DNA from: Aeromicrobium tamlense
GTDB taxonomy: Bacteria > Actinomycetota > Actinomycetes > Propionibacteriales > Nocardioidaceae
Direction of reading: 5' to 3'
Length of the DNA stretch: 64,000 nucleotides
NCBI RefSeq assembly: GCF_013408555.1
Contig: NZ_JACBZN010000001.1
Coordinates: forward strand, 3,100,001 to 3,164,000
Numbering within the stretch: position 1 is the first letter of the stretch; every line of letters begins with the position of its first letter. This document shows positions 12,242 through 30,015 of the stretch, piece after piece. The notes below the pieces were generated by a model. The model did no database searches. It was not told the DNA's origin and worked only from the letters and a program-made list of their open reading frames with translations. The position numbers were made by a program, and so were the translations under genes.

Positions 12242-12583
12242 GTGAACGACCGACTTCTGCGCGCCTACCAGGTCATGGCGACCATCGTGGGACTCAACCT
12301 CCTCATCGTGATGGCCGGCTTCATCGGCAAGATCGCCACCGACGAGGGCTCGTGGTGGAACCGCCACCAGGACACCTTCCTGGTGATCGACCAGCTGCAC
12401 GGCTTCCTCTTCATGGTGCTGATCGTCCTGGTCGCCCGCCTGACCCTGCGCGAGAAGTGGTCGTGGGGCTACATGCTCAGCGTCATCGTCCTGGCGTGCA
12501 TCCCGCTCGTGTCGTTCTGGTCCGAGCGCCGCACGACCCACCGCGTGCACGCCTCCCGGGCCTCCGCGCCCGCCACCGCCTGA
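12242..12583 (+). CDS. DUF3817-family small integral membrane protein
   Basis: A 113-residue protein with three membrane helices (VMATIVGLNLLIVMAGFIGKI, LHGFLFMVLIVLVARLTL, WGYMLSVIVLACIPLVSFWSE) and the DQLHGFLFM and FWSERRTTHRV motifs of DUF3817. The family often sits next to cytochrome-oxidase or SURF1 genes in actinobacteria, as here. Function is unknown. Confidence 0.85.
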   Translation: MNDRLLRAYQVMATIVGLNLLIVMAGFIGKIATDEGSWWNRHQDTFLVIDQLHGFLFMVLIVLVARLTLREKWSWGYMLSVIVLACIPLVSFWSERRTTHRVHASRASAPATA

Positions 12584-12584
12584 G

Positions 12585-12788
12585 TCAGTCCTCGGCCGGG
12601 TCGGGCTCGAACAGGTCCTCGATCCGACAGTCGAACGCCGCCGCGAGCCGGAACGCCAGCGGCAGCGACGGGTCGTAGCGACCCTTCTCGATCGAGATCA
12701 CGGTCTGCCGCGACACGCCCAGCTCGTCGGCGAGCCGGCGCTGCGACCAGCCGCGCTCCTCGCGGAGCCGCGGGACGTGGTTGCGCAT
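12585..12788 (-). CDS. Small XRE-type helix-turn-helix regulator
   Basis: A 67-residue protein that is almost only a HTH_3 domain: LREERGWSQRRLADELGVSRQTVISIEKGRYDPSLPLAFRLAAAF, ending in FEPDPAED. Its ATG overlaps the stop of the upstream membrane-protein gene as TGATG, so both come from one message. This regulator/membrane-protein pair resembles the common YozG/DUF2178-type arrangement. Its likely target is the tandem palindrome in its own promoter. Confidence 0.9.
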   Translation of the reverse strand: MRNHVPRLREERGWSQRRLADELGVSRQTVISIEKGRYDPSLPLAFRLAAAFDCRIEDLFEPDPAED

Positions 12789-13249
12789 CAGCCGTCCCGA
12801 CGCTTCAGCCACAGCATCCGCACGACGACGTCGCCCATCGCGAACGCCGTCAGCGCGATCAGTCCGATCCGCAGCGACACGTCGAGGTCGACGATGACCC
12901 CGGCGACGAGCGTGAGCCCGAGGACCAGCAGCAGGTCGGTGAACGCGCCGCTCTGCGCGCGCTGGAGCCACTGGGCCTCGATCGTGTCGTCGGGCCGGTC
13001 CACCGCGTCGCGCAGGCTCGTCCGGTCGACGAGGACGACCCACGTCAGCGCGAAGATCCACGGCAGCGCGACGACCGCGAAGACGACGATCTCCTCGCGC
13101 CGGGTCCCGTCGAGCGCCGCCAGCGCCCACGCCGCGACCCCGCCCGACACCACCAGTGCGACGGCCACGCAGACCCCGAGCAGCACCCCCGGCCCCCCAC
13201 CGAACCGCGCCCGCCCCCAGTACCCCCGCGTCTCCACCTGTTCGCTCAT
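12788..13249 (-). CDS. Four-helix membrane protein paired with a HTH regulator
   Basis: A 153-residue protein with about four membrane segments (VLLGVCVAVALVVSGGVAAW, IVVFAVVALPWIFALTWVVL, FTDLLLVLGLTLVAGVIVDL, LRIGLIALTAFAMGDVVVRML). I do not recognise a characterised family. It is transcribed with the XRE regulator it overlaps, a pairing often seen for membrane proteins expressed under autorepression. A TACGGT hexamer lies 6 nt before its ATG. Confidence 0.75.
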   Translation of the reverse strand: MSEQVETRGYWGRARFGGGPGVLLGVCVAVALVVSGGVAAWALAALDGTRREEIVVFAVVALPWIFALTWVVLVDRTSLRDAVDRPDDTIEAQWLQRAQSGAFTDLLLVLGLTLVAGVIVDLDVSLRIGLIALTAFAMGDVVVRMLWLKRRDG

Positions 13250-13255
13250 GCCCCC

Positions 13256-13261
13256 ACCGTA
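13256..13261 (-). promoter_or_regulatory. Leaderless -10 element (TACGGT) of the membrane-protein/HTH operon
   Basis: On the minus strand TTGACT, 18 nt, TACGGT, 6 nt, ATG at 13249: a full -35/-10 promoter with a leaderless start. Confidence 0.65.
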
Positions 13262-13263
13262 GG

Positions 13264-13296
13264 GTCAAGGTCGCTTGACAGTCAAGCACCCTTGAC
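13264..13296 (-). promoter_or_regulatory. Tandem palindromic operator, GTCAAG-N4-CTTGAC twice
   Basis: Two perfect palindromes GTCAAG-N4-CTTGAC at 13264-13279 and 13281-13296 are separated by one base. They cover the -35 hexamer and spacer of the membrane-protein/HTH operon, an ideal position for autorepression by the small XRE regulator. Confidence 0.65.
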
Positions 13297-13311
13297 GTCG
13301 GGTGAATGACG

Positions 13312-13383
13312 GTTTCCCCGGTTAAGCGGGGAAACCGTCACTTAGCGAGGTTCGCAAACCTCACTAAGTGACAGGAAACCTCG
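13312..13383 (+). repeat. 72-bp palindromic intergenic repeat, copy 1
   Basis: Two adjoining hairpins. Hairpin A has perfect 14-nt arms at 13307-13320 and 13327-13340. Hairpin B has 16-nt arms at 13337-13352 and 13357-13372 with one mismatch. The unit ends GTGACAGGAAACCTCG. It is 63/72 identical to copy 2 and 62/72 to copy 3, and lies upstream of the AbiEi-like gene. Confidence 0.9.
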
Positions 13384-13414
13384 CGAAGTCGGGGCTCGTG
13401 GACGACGTGCCGCG

Positions 13415-13423
13415 TTGTCCACA
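13415..13423 (+). promoter_or_regulatory. Consensus DnaA box (TTGTCCACA)
   Basis: An exact match to the actinobacterial DnaA-box consensus between repeat copy 1 and the AbiEi-like gene. A single box; may be chance. Confidence 0.3.
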
Positions 13424-13474
13424 GGGTCCGAAGTCAGGACCGTTCTCGTGGCTGGGATCCGCGAGAGTTCACGA

Positions 13475-14452
13475 ATGGAGCCCTTCTTCGAGACCTTGGC
13501 CGATCGCCGAGGTGGTTACATCCTGCGTCCCGATCTGCTCGACCTGGGCGTGTCCGACCGCCAGATCAAGGACGCGCTCCGGCAGGAGCTCATCGTGCGA
13601 ATTCGCCCGGGGACGTACGCGCCGCGCGGACACGCCGACCTCTCGCCGGAGGAGAGGCACCGGCTGCTGGCCTTCGCGGTGCAGGACAAGCTGCCCTCGG
13701 GAGTCGTGCTCAGCCACCAGTCCGCCTCGGTGATCCACAGCGGCGTCTCGTACGGCCTCGACCTGAGCCAGGTCCATGTGACGCGTCTGGGTCGGACGAC
13801 CGCCCGTGCCGAGGCGAAGGTGACCCATCACGGGGGAACCCTGCCGGACGAGGACATCGTCGAGGTCGACGGGCACCTCCTCGTGGTCCCTGGGCGCGCC
13901 GCGCTCGAGACGGCGGTGGTCGCCGGCACGGAGGCCGGCCTCATCCAGACGTCCCTCGCGCTACGGCATGGTGTGACGCCGGAAGAGCTGCACGAGCGCC
14001 TCGGCGCGATGGCGCGATGGCCCGGCGTCGCCAAAGTTCGTCTGTCCGTCATCTGGGCCACCCCGGAGTGCGAGACCGTTGGGGAGCTCCGCTCCCTCTA
14101 CATGTTTCGTATGGGCGGTGTCCCCGTTCCCCGGATGCAGGTGGAGTACTTCGACGCGAACGGAGTCTCGCTCGGTCGGGTGGACTTCGACTGGGAGGAC
14201 TTCTGGCACTGCGGCGAGTTCGACGGCCTACTCAAGTACGGCCGTCTGAACCCGTACGGCGGCGGCAACCTCGGTCAGGTGATCGTCGACGAGAAGCGCC
14301 GCGAGGACCGCATTCGCGAGACGGGCCGTGGGATGAGCCGGTGGGTGTGGTCCGACCTGCACTCGCCTCGGGCTACCTGCCAGCGGATCCTGGCAGCCCT
14401 CGAGCAGTCGCGTCGCCTTCACGGCCGTCGCTCGCCCACCGTCCTCGCCTGA
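13475..14452 (+). CDS. AbiEi-antitoxin-like HTH protein with a nuclease-fold-like C-terminus
   Basis: From the ATG at 13475 the protein has 325 residues. Residues 10-50 (RGGYILRPDLLDLGVSDRQI..LIVRIRPGTYAPRG) are the winged-helix AbiEi_4 domain of type IV antitoxins. The C-terminal third has VDFDWE (236-241), GEFDGLLKY (247-255) and DEKRREDRIRETG, which resembles the PD-(D/E)xK / DUF559-Vsr fold with candidate acidic residues D237, E248, D250 and K254. No AbiEii toxin gene is adjacent. The gene is bracketed by inverted copies of a 72-bp repeat, and its codon use looks slightly less extreme than neighbours. In-frame upstream starts (TTG 13415, GTG 13448) are possible. Function is unproven: antitoxin, regulator or nuclease. 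Confidence 0.8.
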   Translation: MEPFFETLADRRGGYILRPDLLDLGVSDRQIKDALRQELIVRIRPGTYAPRGHADLSPEERHRLLAFAVQDKLPSGVVLSHQSASVIHSGVSYGLDLSQVHVTRLGRTTARAEAKVTHHGGTLPDEDIVEVDGHLLVVPGRAALETAVVAGTEAGLIQTSLALRHGVTPEELHERLGAMARWPGVAKVRLSVIWATPECETVGELRSLYMFRMGGVPVPRMQVEYFDANGVSLGRVDFDWEDFWHCGEFDGLLKYGRLNPYGGGNLGQVIVDEKRREDRIRETGRGMSRWVWSDLHSPRATCQRILAALEQSRRLHGRRSPTVLA

Positions 14453-14457
14453 CTTCA

Positions 14458-14529
14458 CGAGGTTTCCTGTCACTTCACGAGGTTCGCGAACCTCCGTCAG
14501 TGGCAGTTTCCCCGCTTAACCGGGGAAAC
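14458..14529 (-). repeat. 72-bp palindromic intergenic repeat, copy 2 (inverted)
   Basis: Reverse-oriented copy, 63/72 identical to copy 1 and 64/72 to copy 3. Hairpin A arms are 14501-14514 and 14521-14534, with one mismatch. The core palindrome GAGGTTCGCGAACCTC is at 14479-14494. It fills the gap between two convergent genes. Confidence 0.9.
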
Positions 14530-14536
14530 TGTCACG

Positions 14537-15310
14537 TCACCGCCCGACGAACGTGGCGTTCCCGGGGCCGTCGGCGAGGAAGGAGGCCATGCCGTGCTGG
14601 AGGTCCTCGGTGTCGAAGAGCTCGGCGGCGATCTCGGTGGTGCGGGCGATGGAGCCCGGGACGCCGGAGGCCTCGAACTCGCGCAGGATCTGCTTCGCGG
14701 CGCCGAACGCGCGGGTCGGGCCGGAGGCCAGGTCGGCGGCGAAGGCCGCGACGCCGGCGTCGAGCTCGTCGGGAGCGAAGACCCGGTTGACCACGTTCCA
14801 GCGCTCGAGCGTGGCGGCGTCGAACGGCGCGCCCGTGAACACGAACTCCTTGGCGCGCGCGACACCCGCGCGGCCGGCGAGCCGCTGCGTTCCGCCCATG
14901 GTCGGCGTCAGCCCGATGACCCGCTCGACGAGGCCGAACTTCGCCTTCTCCGAGGCCAGCAGCACGTCGCACGCCAGCGCGACCTCGAACGCCCACGTCA
15001 GCGTCAGGCCGTGCGCGACGAAGATCGTGGGAACGTCCAGCGCCGCGAACCGCTCGGGCAGCTCGATCATCCGGTCGTAGAGCTCGCGCGTGGCGGCCTT
15101 GGTGGTGCGGGCGTGGAACTGCGCCACGTCGACGCCGCCGGACACGAGCTTGCCCCCGGCGCGCACCACCAGCACGCGGGGCGGCTCGGCCTCCACGCGA
15201 TCCAGGGCCGCGTCGAACTCATCGTGGAACTCCAGCGAGTACAGGTTCACGGGCGGGGCGGAGAAGGTGAGCGTTGTCACACCACCCTCGGAGTGCAGGT
15301 TGACGGTCAC
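14537..15310 (-). CDS. Enoyl-CoA hydratase/isomerase family protein
   Basis: A 257-residue crotonase-fold protein. The first oxyanion-hole region (LVVRAGGKLVSGGVDVAQF) and the second (HGLTLTWAFEVALACDVLLASEKAKFGL) are recognisable. The second has Leu-Thr-Trp where hydratases have Gly-Gly-Gly, so activity may differ from a classical hydratase. The usual catalytic Glu position (LVERVIGLTPTMGGTQRL) holds a Glu in FGLVERV. The GTG start overlaps the stop of a 35-codon ORF upstream as GTGA. Substrate unknown. Confidence 0.85.
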   Translation of the reverse strand: MTVNLHSEGGVTTLTFSAPPVNLYSLEFHDEFDAALDRVEAEPPRVLVVRAGGKLVSGGVDVAQFHARTTKAATRELYDRMIELPERFAALDVPTIFVAHGLTLTWAFEVALACDVLLASEKAKFGLVERVIGLTPTMGGTQRLAGRAGVARAKEFVFTGAPFDAATLERWNVVNRVFAPDELDAGVAAFAADLASGPTRAFGAAKQILREFEASGVPGSIARTTEIAAELFDTEDLQHGMASFLADGPGNATFVGR

Positions 15311-15414
15311 CGATCGATCCTCGGATCGTAGGAGCCGCCGCGCTCGGCGGTGGCCTTGCGGACGACCACGACGGCCGCCGCGGCAGCGATCAGGAGCAAC
15401 ACCAGTCTCGACAT
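15307..15414 (-). CDS. Putative 35-residue single-helix membrane protein
   Basis: An ATG at 15414 opens a 35-codon frame: MSRLVLLLIAAAAAVVVVRK, one hydrophobic helix followed by a polar tail ATAERGGSYDPRIDR. Its TGA overlaps the GTG start of the enoyl-CoA hydratase (GTGA), which supports real translation by coupling. I know no family for it. Confidence 0.5.
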   Translation of the reverse strand: MSRLVLLLIAAAAAVVVVRKATAERGGSYDPRIDR

Positions 15415-15483
15415 GCCCCCACGCTAGCGGGAGACGTTCGGCGTCTCGTGCAAGGATGGAACCAACCCCTGAAAGGACGTGAA

Positions 15484-16014
15484 GTGCCCACCATCGCCAC
15501 GCTCCACACCAACCGTGGAGACATCAAGATCGAGCTGTTCGACCACCAGGCACCCAAGACGGTGGCGAACTTCGTCGGCTTGGCCGAGGGCACCAAGGAA
15601 TGGGTCGATCCCGCCACCGGCTCGGTGTCGACGAAGCCCTTCTACGACGGCCTCACGTTCCACCGGGTGATCTCCAACTTCATGCTGCAGGGCGGCGACC
15701 CGCTCGGCGACGGCCGCGGTGGCCCGGGCTACGAGTTCGACGACGAGTTCCACCCCGAGCTCCAGTTCGACCGTCCCTACCTGCTCGCCATGGCCAACGC
15801 GGGCACCAAGCCCAACGGCGCCGGCACGAACGGCTCGCAGTTCTTCATCACGGTCGCGAAGACCGACTGGCTCAACCGGAAGCACTCGATCTTCGGTGAG
15901 GTCAAGGACGCCGACAGCCGCGCTGTCGTCGACGCGATCGCCGCGGTCGAGACCGATCGCTTCGATCGTCCGACCCAGCCCGTCGTGATCGAGTCCGTCA
16001 CCATCGAGAAGTGA
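15484..16014 (+). CDS. Cyclophilin-type peptidyl-prolyl cis-trans isomerase
   Basis: A 176-residue cytosolic cyclophilin catalysing proline isomerisation during folding. The motifs FHRVISNFMLQGGDP (catalytic Arg), LAMANAGTKPNGAGTNGSQFFIT and NRKHSIFGEV are all intact. The GTG at 15484 follows AAAGGACGTGAA, a good Shine-Dalgarno site, so I prefer it to the upstream ATG at 15448. The rhomboid protease gene overlaps its stop (GTGA). In mycobacteria ppiA likewise lies close to the rhomboid and crgA genes. Confidence 0.95.
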   Translation: MPTIATLHTNRGDIKIELFDHQAPKTVANFVGLAEGTKEWVDPATGSVSTKPFYDGLTFHRVISNFMLQGGDPLGDGRGGPGYEFDDEFHPELQFDRPYLLAMANAGTKPNGAGTNGSQFFITVAKTDWLNRKHSIFGEVKDADSRAVVDAIAAVETDRFDRPTQPVVIESVTIEK

Positions 16015-16901: not shown

Positions 16902-16910
16902 TTGTCCACA
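16902..16910 (+). promoter_or_regulatory. DnaA-box cluster between rhomboid and crgA genes
   Basis: TTGTCCACA at 16902-16910 is an exact DnaA consensus. A TCCACA half-box lies 9 nt upstream, and an imperfect reversed box (TGTGGGGAA, 16926-16934) follows. The 66-bp gap lies in the crgA region, which is near oriC in relatives. Confidence 0.4.
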
Positions 16911-28811: not shown

Positions 28812-29411
28812 GTGTCGTACCGCACGATCGACCGGCCCGTCGGCGGCTTCGCCGAGGCCGAGATCGTCGTGCTGCGGTCGCGGTTCCTGGCGCGGGCGGG
28901 CCGGGTCGAGGACGAGGCGTCGGCGCGGGCGCTGATCGCCGAGGTGCGGTCGACGCACCACGACGCCCGGCACCACTGCACCGCGTTCGTCATCGGTCCC
29001 GACGGTGCGCTGCGGCGCAGCAACGACGACGGCGAGCCCTCCGGGACCGCCGGCCGGCCGATGCTCGAGGTCCTCGCCGGGCGTGAGGTCAGCGACGTCG
29101 TCGCCGTCGTCACGCGGTGGTTCGGCGGCACGCTGCTCGGCACCGGCGGTCTCGCCCGGGCGTACGCCGACGCCACGGCCGCCGCGCTCGACGTCGCCGG
29201 CACGCGCCAGCGCGTCCTGTGGCAGCGGGCGCGCGTGACCGTCCCGGTCACCGAGGTCGGCGCGATGGAGAGCCGGCTGCGCCGCGACACCGACGTCCTC
29301 GCCGTCGCCTACGGCGCGGCCGAGGTCTCCTACGAGGTCGCCACCGCCGACCTCGCCGTCCTCGACCGGCTGCCCTTCGAGACCCTCGAGCCCGTCTGGC
29401 GCGATTCGTAG
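28812..29411 (+). CDS. YigZ/IMPACT-family protein
   Basis: A 199-residue protein with the UPF0029 N-terminal domain: SRFLARAGRVEDEASARALIAEVRSTHHDARHHCTAFVIG, then SNDDGEPSGTAGRPMLEVL and VVTRWFGGTLLGTGGLARAYADA. The second domain is YigZ C-terminal. The family is linked to translation regulation (eukaryotic IMPACT binds GCN1); the bacterial role is unclear. GTG start one base after the methyltransferase stop. Confidence 0.93.
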   Translation: MSYRTIDRPVGGFAEAEIVVLRSRFLARAGRVEDEASARALIAEVRSTHHDARHHCTAFVIGPDGALRRSNDDGEPSGTAGRPMLEVLAGREVSDVVAVVTRWFGGTLLGTGGLARAYADATAAALDVAGTRQRVLWQRARVTVPVTEVGAMESRLRRDTDVLAVAYGAAEVSYEVATADLAVLDRLPFETLEPVWRDS

Positions 29412-29416
29412 GGGAG

Positions 29417-29488
29417 GTTTCCCCGGTTAACCGGGGAAACTGTCACTTCACGAGGTTTGCGAACCACGTGAAGTGACAGGAAACCTCG
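29417..29488 (+). repeat. 72-bp palindromic intergenic repeat, copy 3
   Basis: Hairpin A has perfect arms around GGTTAACC. Hairpin B arms CACTTCAC/GTGAAGTG differ from copy 1 (CACTTAG/CTAAGTG) by compensating changes that keep pairing. The copy is bounded by GAGGTTTCC (29414) and GGAAACCTC (29487) inverted ends, and fills the gap between convergent genes. Confidence 0.9.
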
Positions 29489-29493
29489 TTCAG

Positions 29494-30015
29494 TCACTGG
29501 CCGAGGCGGCCCAGGACCTCGCGCACGTGGCCGAGGGCGTCGGGGCTGCCCAGGCCGGTGGTGTCGTCGAAGTAGAGCCCGTCGCCGATCAGCTGGATCG
29601 TGCGCGCGAGCGCCTCGTCGGCGAGGTGGTCGTTGAGCACGCCGAACCAGGCGTCGCGGATGTCGGCGAGGGCCGTGCGGGCGCCGTGGTCGTGCTCCTG
29701 GGCGATGCGCGAGGCCGCGATGAGGGCGCGGTCGAAGTCGCTGCCGGTGTCCACCGAGGTCTCGAGGTAGAACGCGACCGGACCCTGAGGGGCGGAGCGC
29801 ATCTGCTCGACGTCGCGCGCCGCCTGCTCCCGCAGCCGCTCGACCATCCCATCGACGAGGGCCTCGCGGCTGTGGAAGTGGTAGAGCAGACCACCCTTGG
29901 AGACGCCGGCCTCGGCCGCGACGGCGTCGAGCGTGGCCGCCCGGCTGCCCGCGCCGACCAGCAGTCGCTCGAAGGCGTCGAGGACGCGGTCACGGGTGCT
30001 GCGTTCCTCGGCCAT
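29494..30015 (-). CDS. TetR-family repressor of the adjacent MFS exporter
   Basis: A 173-residue regulator with N-terminal HTH (RVLDAFERLLVGAGSRAATLDAVAAEAGVSKGGLLYHFHSREALVDGM) and a TetR_C-type ligand domain. The start is the ATG at 30015, with TAGGCT 7 nt upstream. It is divergent from an MFS drug transporter gene. A perfect 22-base inverted repeat with 2-nt spacer lies on the transporter's -10, so it probably represses the pump until a ligand binds. Confidence 0.92.
   Translation of the reverse strand: MAEERSTRDRVLDAFERLLVGAGSRAATLDAVAAEAGVSKGGLLYHFHSREALVDGMVERLREQAARDVEQMRSAPQGPVAFYLETSVDTGSDFDRALIAASRIAQEHDHGARTALADIRDAWFGVLNDHLADEALARTIQLIGDGLYFDDTTGLGSPDALGHVREVLGRLGQ

Follow-up and report, generated by a model that had tools for sequence, protein, structure and literature searches.

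What is a gene for an AbiEi_4-domain protein doing between two inverted copies of a palindromic repeat? The question is raised by a locus of Aeromicrobium tamlense, whose genome (G000) is assembled as one contig of 3.37 Mb. The window analysed here is a 64,000-nt stretch of it (G000:C1:3100001-3164000), and coordinates refer to the window unless a genome handle is given. The original prediction had the gene at 13475-14452 enclosed by inverted copies of a 72-bp repeat, together forming a compact cassette. The enclosure is confirmed: two inverted arms (13307-13393 and 14448-14534) of 87 nt each, 86% complementary and 1054 nt apart, flank the gene, whose final 5 nt, with the stop codon, fall within the downstream arm. 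The repeat is real, but its unit is better given as about 87 nt, comprising two hairpins, one outer and one inner, and a tail that resembles the 3' arm of the inner one. The features of the locus are as follows.

13307..13393, + strand: upstream copy of the two-hairpin repeat, from the inverted pair and the copy alignment; fold z -6.4; outer hairpin at about 13307-13340
13415..13423, + strand: TTGTCCACA, a DnaA-box-like site whose TCCACA begins at -57 from the start codon
13463..13468, + strand: GAGAGT, candidate -10 element of a leaderless transcript from the ATG, from homologues aligned on the box
13475..14452, + strand: gene of the AbiEi_4 + predicted nuclease protein (P0001, 325 aa)
13493..13624, + strand: AbiEi_4 DNA-binding domain, residues 7-50 (Pfam PF13338, E 3.5e-08)
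14084..14341, + strand: predicted PD-(D/E)XK nuclease core, residues 204-289, from invariant residues and the DUF559 profile match
14448..14534, - strand: downstream repeat copy, inverted, over the stop codon; fold z -4.0
29410..29496 (about), + strand: solo repeat copy between other genes, from the inverted-repeat comparison; fold z -7.4

We propose that the segment is probably a unit in which a chromosomal gene for a predicted nuclease is paired with its own repeat family. The bracket itself is seen directly, and chance is excluded as its source at this gene by the shuffle score, by the window's other genes and by the folding of the arms. The inverted-repeat score between the upstream and downstream flanks is 57, compared with a maximum of 15.5 in 100 shuffles; among the 42 genes of the window this gene alone passes the bracket test; and both arms fold better than all 200 dinucleotide shuffles (z -6.4 and -4.0). 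An Rfam scan of 12500-15500 gave no match at E values up to 1.

A look for the same bracketing around paralogues had been proposed as a check, and homologues and paralogues alike show it: it is found in 95 of 106 distinct homologues across the actinobacterial class. At each locus the 400 nt before the gene were aligned to the reverse-complemented 400 nt after it, and the score was set against those of shuffled sequences; the threshold, which was our choice, was a score more than 4 above the maximum of 50 shuffles. The first set, consisting of genus-level homologues plus Gordonia, was instead compared with 100 shuffles, and all 32 loci (31 of 31 distinct) exceeded the maximum by at least 11. 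A second set, mostly from other genera of the class, was bracketed at 50 of 60 loci (49 of 59 distinct), as were 15 of 16 further homologues from the genus. Duplicates (L069, the same as L040, and L124, the same as L121) are left out of the distinct counts, and the upstream coordinates of L177 are unreliable because its start codon is misplaced. A Gordonia homologue with 33% identity passes the test. None of 30 orthologous control genes, encoding enoyl-CoA hydratase (ECH), is bracketed. The 11 homologues that fail, one of them at a contig edge, count against the pairing of nuclease and repeat.

Throughout these homologues the layout is constant while the repeat sequence varies from genome to genome; in the first set the arms usually span roughly -170 to -90 relative to the start codon and 0 to +90 relative to the stop codon. 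Inverted arms with 86% complementarity are what a flipping switch would need, in which recombination between the copies inverts the gene to control it. However, across species the upstream arm keeps one fixed distance from the start codon and the downstream arm another from the stop codon, and an inversion would take along the candidate promoter signals, which are themselves enclosed by the arms. Such a switch is extremely improbable.

Relatives also carry the locus without the unit. Within a scope of about 1.5 kb, the AbiEi-like gene occurs at only one of 30 orthologous ECH loci, that of the window. Four genomes (G014, G003, G005 and G017) keep both neighbours, with ORF153 adjoining ECH and the AbiEi-like unit missing; the gap between ORF153 and ECH is 63 nt in G014 compared with 1287 nt in the window. 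These unit-free sites, which are seen directly, and the bracketed homologues both support the idea of a cassette. It had been stated beforehand that the idea would fail if gene and repeats occurred without each other in random combinations. Both separations do occur, in the 11 homologues without a bracket and at the ECH end of G004, where there is a solo repeat and both the AbiEi-like gene and ORF153 are missing; but judged against the control genes the combinations do not look random. Other hairpin-like sequences lie at the ECH 3' end (L076, L078 and L077), one in G005/G017 and a third in G009, and this end may be a hotspot for hairpin-like repeats. In G005 and G017 the corresponding place lacks the stretch around the solo copy of the window (about 29405-29512); the solo site was unmatched in 20-kb syntenic pieces of G014 and G003, two of the four pieces being usable.

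Could the unit be an autonomous insertion sequence, with the gene as transposase, the repeats as terminal inverted repeats and the solo copies as MITE-like elements? It shares with insertion sequences the inverted terminal repeats around one gene, held at fixed distances, and loci without the unit in relatives; moreover, the 31 genus-level and Gordonia loci occupy more than 10 neighbourhoods within 1.5 kb. Yet ten of these loci share one neighbourhood, as under vertical descent, and the several near-identical full copies of an insertion sequence are missing: G000 has one strong copy of the gene, the next match being 24% identical. Only 3 of 72,556 plasmid records contain a homologue, all of them from Tsukamurella, and none of 50,697 phage records does. 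Comparison with the empty sites of G014, G003, G005 and G017 shows no target-site duplication, the junctions being too diverged to define one, and the compared sequences do not define a cut site in the repeat. We consider an insertion sequence unlikely. A scan of viral contigs found 32 stretches matching a search pattern and no relatives among them. A homologue at E <= 1e-10 is present in 145 of 394 genomes of the class, and paralogue numbers in the genus reach 4 matches per genome. The nuclease gene looks more like a domesticated gene with mainly vertical inheritance than a busy transposon.

The protein was labelled AbiEi-like from the start, and the label holds for its N-terminus, where Pfam finds AbiEi_4 at residues 7-50, as it does in 58 of 70 homologues. 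The C-terminal half is a different matter and is likely a PD-(D/E)XK nuclease of the DUF559/Vsr type, a prediction drawn from an invariant core and a two-step profile link. All 90 homologues compared share E204, D237, E248, D250, K254, R276 and R289, giving a conserved core of acidic residues and a lysine; 70 of the 90, by our choice, entered the motif alignment. Most of the family profile can be aligned to that of DUF559-bearing proteins (probability 100, E 1e-53 and 6.5e-40), and the profile of the DUF559-bearing relatives in turn matches PDB 3hrl (3.5e-11) and 3r3p, 'Mobile intron protein' (1.9e-5). We take the fold shared by DUF559 (PF04480), 3hrl and 3r3p to be the EDxHD-type homing endonuclease fold. 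The family alignment used directly in a PDB profile search gave only chance-level matches. Pfam itself sees DUF559 in 2 of 70 homologues, which counts against our reading, and a PF04480 search of G000 matches three other places and not the window gene. The window protein also differs from its DUF559 sisters in carrying ExDGxxK where they mostly have ExDGxxH, and no intron or intein context was seen as for homing endonucleases. In an AlphaFold2 model from three sequences (mean pLDDT 42), AbiEi_4 is the only part with fair confidence.

The Pfam scan found no Y1 transposase domain in P0001 or the 70 homologues. In NCBIfam the window protein falls in no family, and the 70 members gave one chance-level match. 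Identity as a carboxymuconolactone decarboxylase (CMD) was rejected, the Pfam match being below its cut-off. The closest named relative found is from an Aeromicrobium choanae MAG (72% protein identity), and a scan of genome contigs yielded two relatives only.

In AbiE, a type IV toxin-antitoxin system, AbiEi of Streptococcus is described as binding inverted repeats and repressing its own promoter (PMC3985639). The likeness to the window protein lies in the N-terminal AbiEi_4 domain and in the inverted repeats; the differences are the predicted nuclease at the C-terminus, the dispersed repeats and the absence of an adjacent abiEii. None of the five neighbour proteins scanned is an AbiEii toxin; they are an HTH protein, a protein of no family, ECH, a DUF3817 protein and a cyclophilin.

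The repeat is not confined to the gene. It has strong matches at at least 30 places on the 3.37-Mb chromosome, a lower bound since 40 of 63 first-look candidates were scored; copy numbers in all genomes were merged by hand from overlapping matches and are likewise lower bounds. Five of 30 aligned copies end instead in a second half of the outer hairpin, and by eye the 30 copies have no constant GTAG at their ends. Twenty-three of the 30 strong places lie at 2.13-3.37 Mb, six below 0.41 Mb and one at 1.02 Mb. None falls within 1.03-2.13 Mb; if the contig begins at the origin, the repeat avoids the terminus region. By a rough ORF method, 15 of the places lie between tandem genes, 9 between convergent and 4 between divergent ones, with 2 undetermined.

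This placement near gene ends, together with the repeat binding and self-repression described for Streptococcus AbiEi, would suit a DNA-binding regulator for which the repeats at gene ends act as terminators or operators and the bracket serves autoregulation. Against it, the nuclease residues are invariant in all 90 homologues, autoregulation needs no inverted downstream copy at the stop codon, and AbiEii is missing from the five neighbours. A regulator of this kind is very unlikely.

That the enzyme, as predicted, and the repeat belong together is well supported by their behaviour across genomes. In all five genomes searched (G000, Gordonia G049, G011, G040 and G007) the gene's own bracketing element is dispersed, occupying, besides the two bracket copies, at least 9 places in G049, at least 8 each in G011 and G040, and at least 22 in G007. 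The G011 element matches weakly in 2 of the other 48 genomes of the genus and in none of the rest. A pair of inverted G011 elements about 0.8 kb apart (L185, G011:C1:68715-69594) encloses no nuclease homologue, and thus an element pair can bracket something else. In G007, tandem copies of the element recur about every 61-62 nt at G007:C1:3435983-3436214 and 656898-657112, in an array-like arrangement.

The G000 element is present in 6 of 49 genus genomes (G000, G004, G003, G014, G034 and G046), with single weak matches each in G034 and G046. Only in G000, G004 and G003 does the best homologue reach 60% identity or more, and all three carry the element; in G004 it occupies about 14 places (a lower bound), two of which bracket that genome's own homologue. 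G014 carries the repeat without any homologue, which counts against the nuclease-repeat reading.

A natural test case is provided by three genomes, G007, G027 and G040, whose units sit between common flanks with 86-94% DNA identity. The G007 and G027 nucleases are 93% identical (97% over residues 1-60) and share one repeat type, which beyond the brackets occupies at least 22 places in G007 and at least 20 in G027. The G040 nuclease is 63% identical to that of G007 (43% over residues 1-60), and its bracket uses another repeat, found at at least 10 places in G040, at least one in G007 and none among the matches listed in G027. G040 also holds about 12 or more places of the G007-type repeat, which counts against our reading, so the pairing of enzyme and repeat is not exclusive. 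These copies are weaker (best 84 bits, compared with 109 in G007 and 118 in G027 for the best non-bracket copies), and we read them as leftovers; part of the dispersed G007 copies, though, have diverged as far as the ones in G040, which counts against the pairing.

Enzyme and repeat also co-vary over the whole sample. The test kept 89 of 108 loci, 46 of them in the genus, and left out loci scoring below 22 as well as L069, L070, L124 and L177; repeat distance was correlated with the distance of one protein part given the rest of the protein. Among the 46 genus loci the partial r is 0.23 for the N-terminal part and 0.25 for the middle part (reached in 0 of 500 permutations each) and 0.10 for the nuclease part (23 of 500), and among all 89 loci it is 0.19, 0.20 and 0.05, respectively (0, 0 and 29 of 500), although the permutations overstate the certainty of these values because the homologues are related.

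In 12 hand-picked pairs of loci with a shared neighbourhood, the nucleases are 55-87% identical compared with 74-99.6% for the flank proteins. Divergence beyond that of the flanks fits replacement of the cassette or strong diversification. Such divergence would suit a nuclease of defence or conflict as well, one that cuts foreign DNA, diversifies in an arms race and uses the repeats as self-marks, decoys or operators. The PADLOC AbiEi models match the window protein weakly, and a sister protein, L192, matches the REase_MTES_1575 family below the cut-off, both in keeping with defence; but this explanation accounts neither for the dispersal of the cognate repeat (8 to at least 30 places per genome) nor for the bracketing of the gene, and we find it quite unlikely.

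A further conserved signal, which had not been expected, precedes the genes. In 84 of 106 loci TCCACA is found in the 150 nt before the start codon, in the context YYGTCCACAG, compared with a background of 0.018 per 150 nt in the window and 0 of 60 windows at ECH ends. Of 122 boxes, 65 lie at -60 to -50 and 43 at -90 to -80, with peaks near -57 and -86, and the spacing between boxes is 28-31 nt in 28 of 38 cases. With the box near -57 as common reference point for 66 loci, two positions are conspicuous, -11 (A in 58%) and -7 (T in 67%); the pattern would suit a -10 element serving a leaderless transcript, for which it is a candidate. The window gene has one box upstream, TTGTCCACA at 13415; the only further exact match in the window is at 16902. 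In M. tuberculosis and S. coelicolor the same sequence is described as the DnaA box of high affinity (PMC4285127). We hypothesize from these sites that the window gene and its homologues may be controlled by DnaA.

The closest known analogue is the REPtron, a RAYT (TnpA_REP) gene with its REP or REPIN repeats (PMC8266576). In both arrangements a chromosomal gene present in one copy lies next to inverted copies of a palindromic repeat that is dispersed in the genome, and in both enzyme and repeat co-vary (PMC8266576); the homologues, too, are mostly single-copy and chromosomal. The REPtron enzyme, however, is an HUH tyrosine nuclease and its repeat is GTAG-tagged (PMC8266576), whereas the window enzyme is a predicted PD-(D/E)XK nuclease joined to AbiEi_4 and its repeat is longer, has two hairpins and no constant GTAG. 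With an unrelated enzyme lacking an HUH/Y1 domain and a repeat lacking the tag, the window pair is not a member of that group. TIRYTs are also similar, being tyrosine transposase genes with long inverted repeats, some in dispersed families, and CGTC REPs are a large group of palindromes said to have no dedicated transposase (PMC3733652). Both differ from the window pair in enzyme family and repeat sequences, and no word beginning with 'actinobacteri' occurs in the main text of that paper (PMC3733652). A search of the open-access literature (PMC) found no account in which dispersed palindromes bracket, or form a pair with, genes for AbiEi or DUF559 proteins.

The way in which REP-like palindromes spread is described as unresolved even for the one well-known enzyme class (PMC8266576). 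For the present pair, we hypothesize that the repeats are recognised and dispersed by the nuclease. Recognition would fall to the N-terminal and middle parts of the protein, and the predicted nuclease would nick or cut at repeats or at targets; repair or replication after cutting could then leave new solo copies, often beside gene ends. The gene would be mostly inherited vertically, and occasionally move or be replaced as a whole cassette. It would be transcribed from its own promoter inside the bracket under a host factor acting at the YYGTCCACAG boxes; DnaA is the simplest candidate and would couple the enzyme to replication.

While the arrangement thus has a known analogue, a restriction-type nuclease unrelated to the RAYT class appears here to own palindromic repeats. 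With dozens of enzyme/repeat pairs available in nature, recognition, cutting and co-evolution can be tested directly, and the three close species of which one has a changed pair are among the cases. If the reading is true, it gives a role to common actinobacterial genes known only by their AbiEi or DUF559 domains, and if the DnaA-box-like sites are real, it links a repeat-spreading enzyme to replication control.

The DUF559 sisters extend the pattern in part. Among 30 DUF559-bearing loci from 20 relatives, 17 are bracketed and 13 fail, the failures counting against the nuclease-repeat reading; YYGTCCACAG-type boxes are found in 19 of 28 sisters. G000 holds a second bracketed AbiEi-like/DUF559 gene (L217, at G000:2481053; G000:C1:2480264-2481339). 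Its hairpin element (GACGAACGATGAGGCATT...) differs from that of the window and occurs, beyond the brackets, at at least 16 further places in G000 and at least 6 in G003, and G000 thus holds at least two enzyme-repeat pairs. The bracketed and boxed sisters and the dispersed L217 element fit an independent, class-wide analogue of REPtrons in actinobacteria, in which the members of a superfamily of AbiEi-DUF559-type nucleases, more than one per genome, would each maintain and spread their own palindromes. In this reading the paired DnaA boxes of the promoters, near -57/-86, would tie the dispersal of repeats to chromosome replication through the initiator itself. We put it forward tentatively, as a possibility with somewhat less than an even chance.

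A further repeated motif lies just outside the unit. GTCAAG/CTTGAC motifs are repeated at 13264-13296, upstream of the ORF153 and HTH genes, and occupy the same place in G003, G005, G014 and G017; perhaps they are the operator of the HTH regulator.
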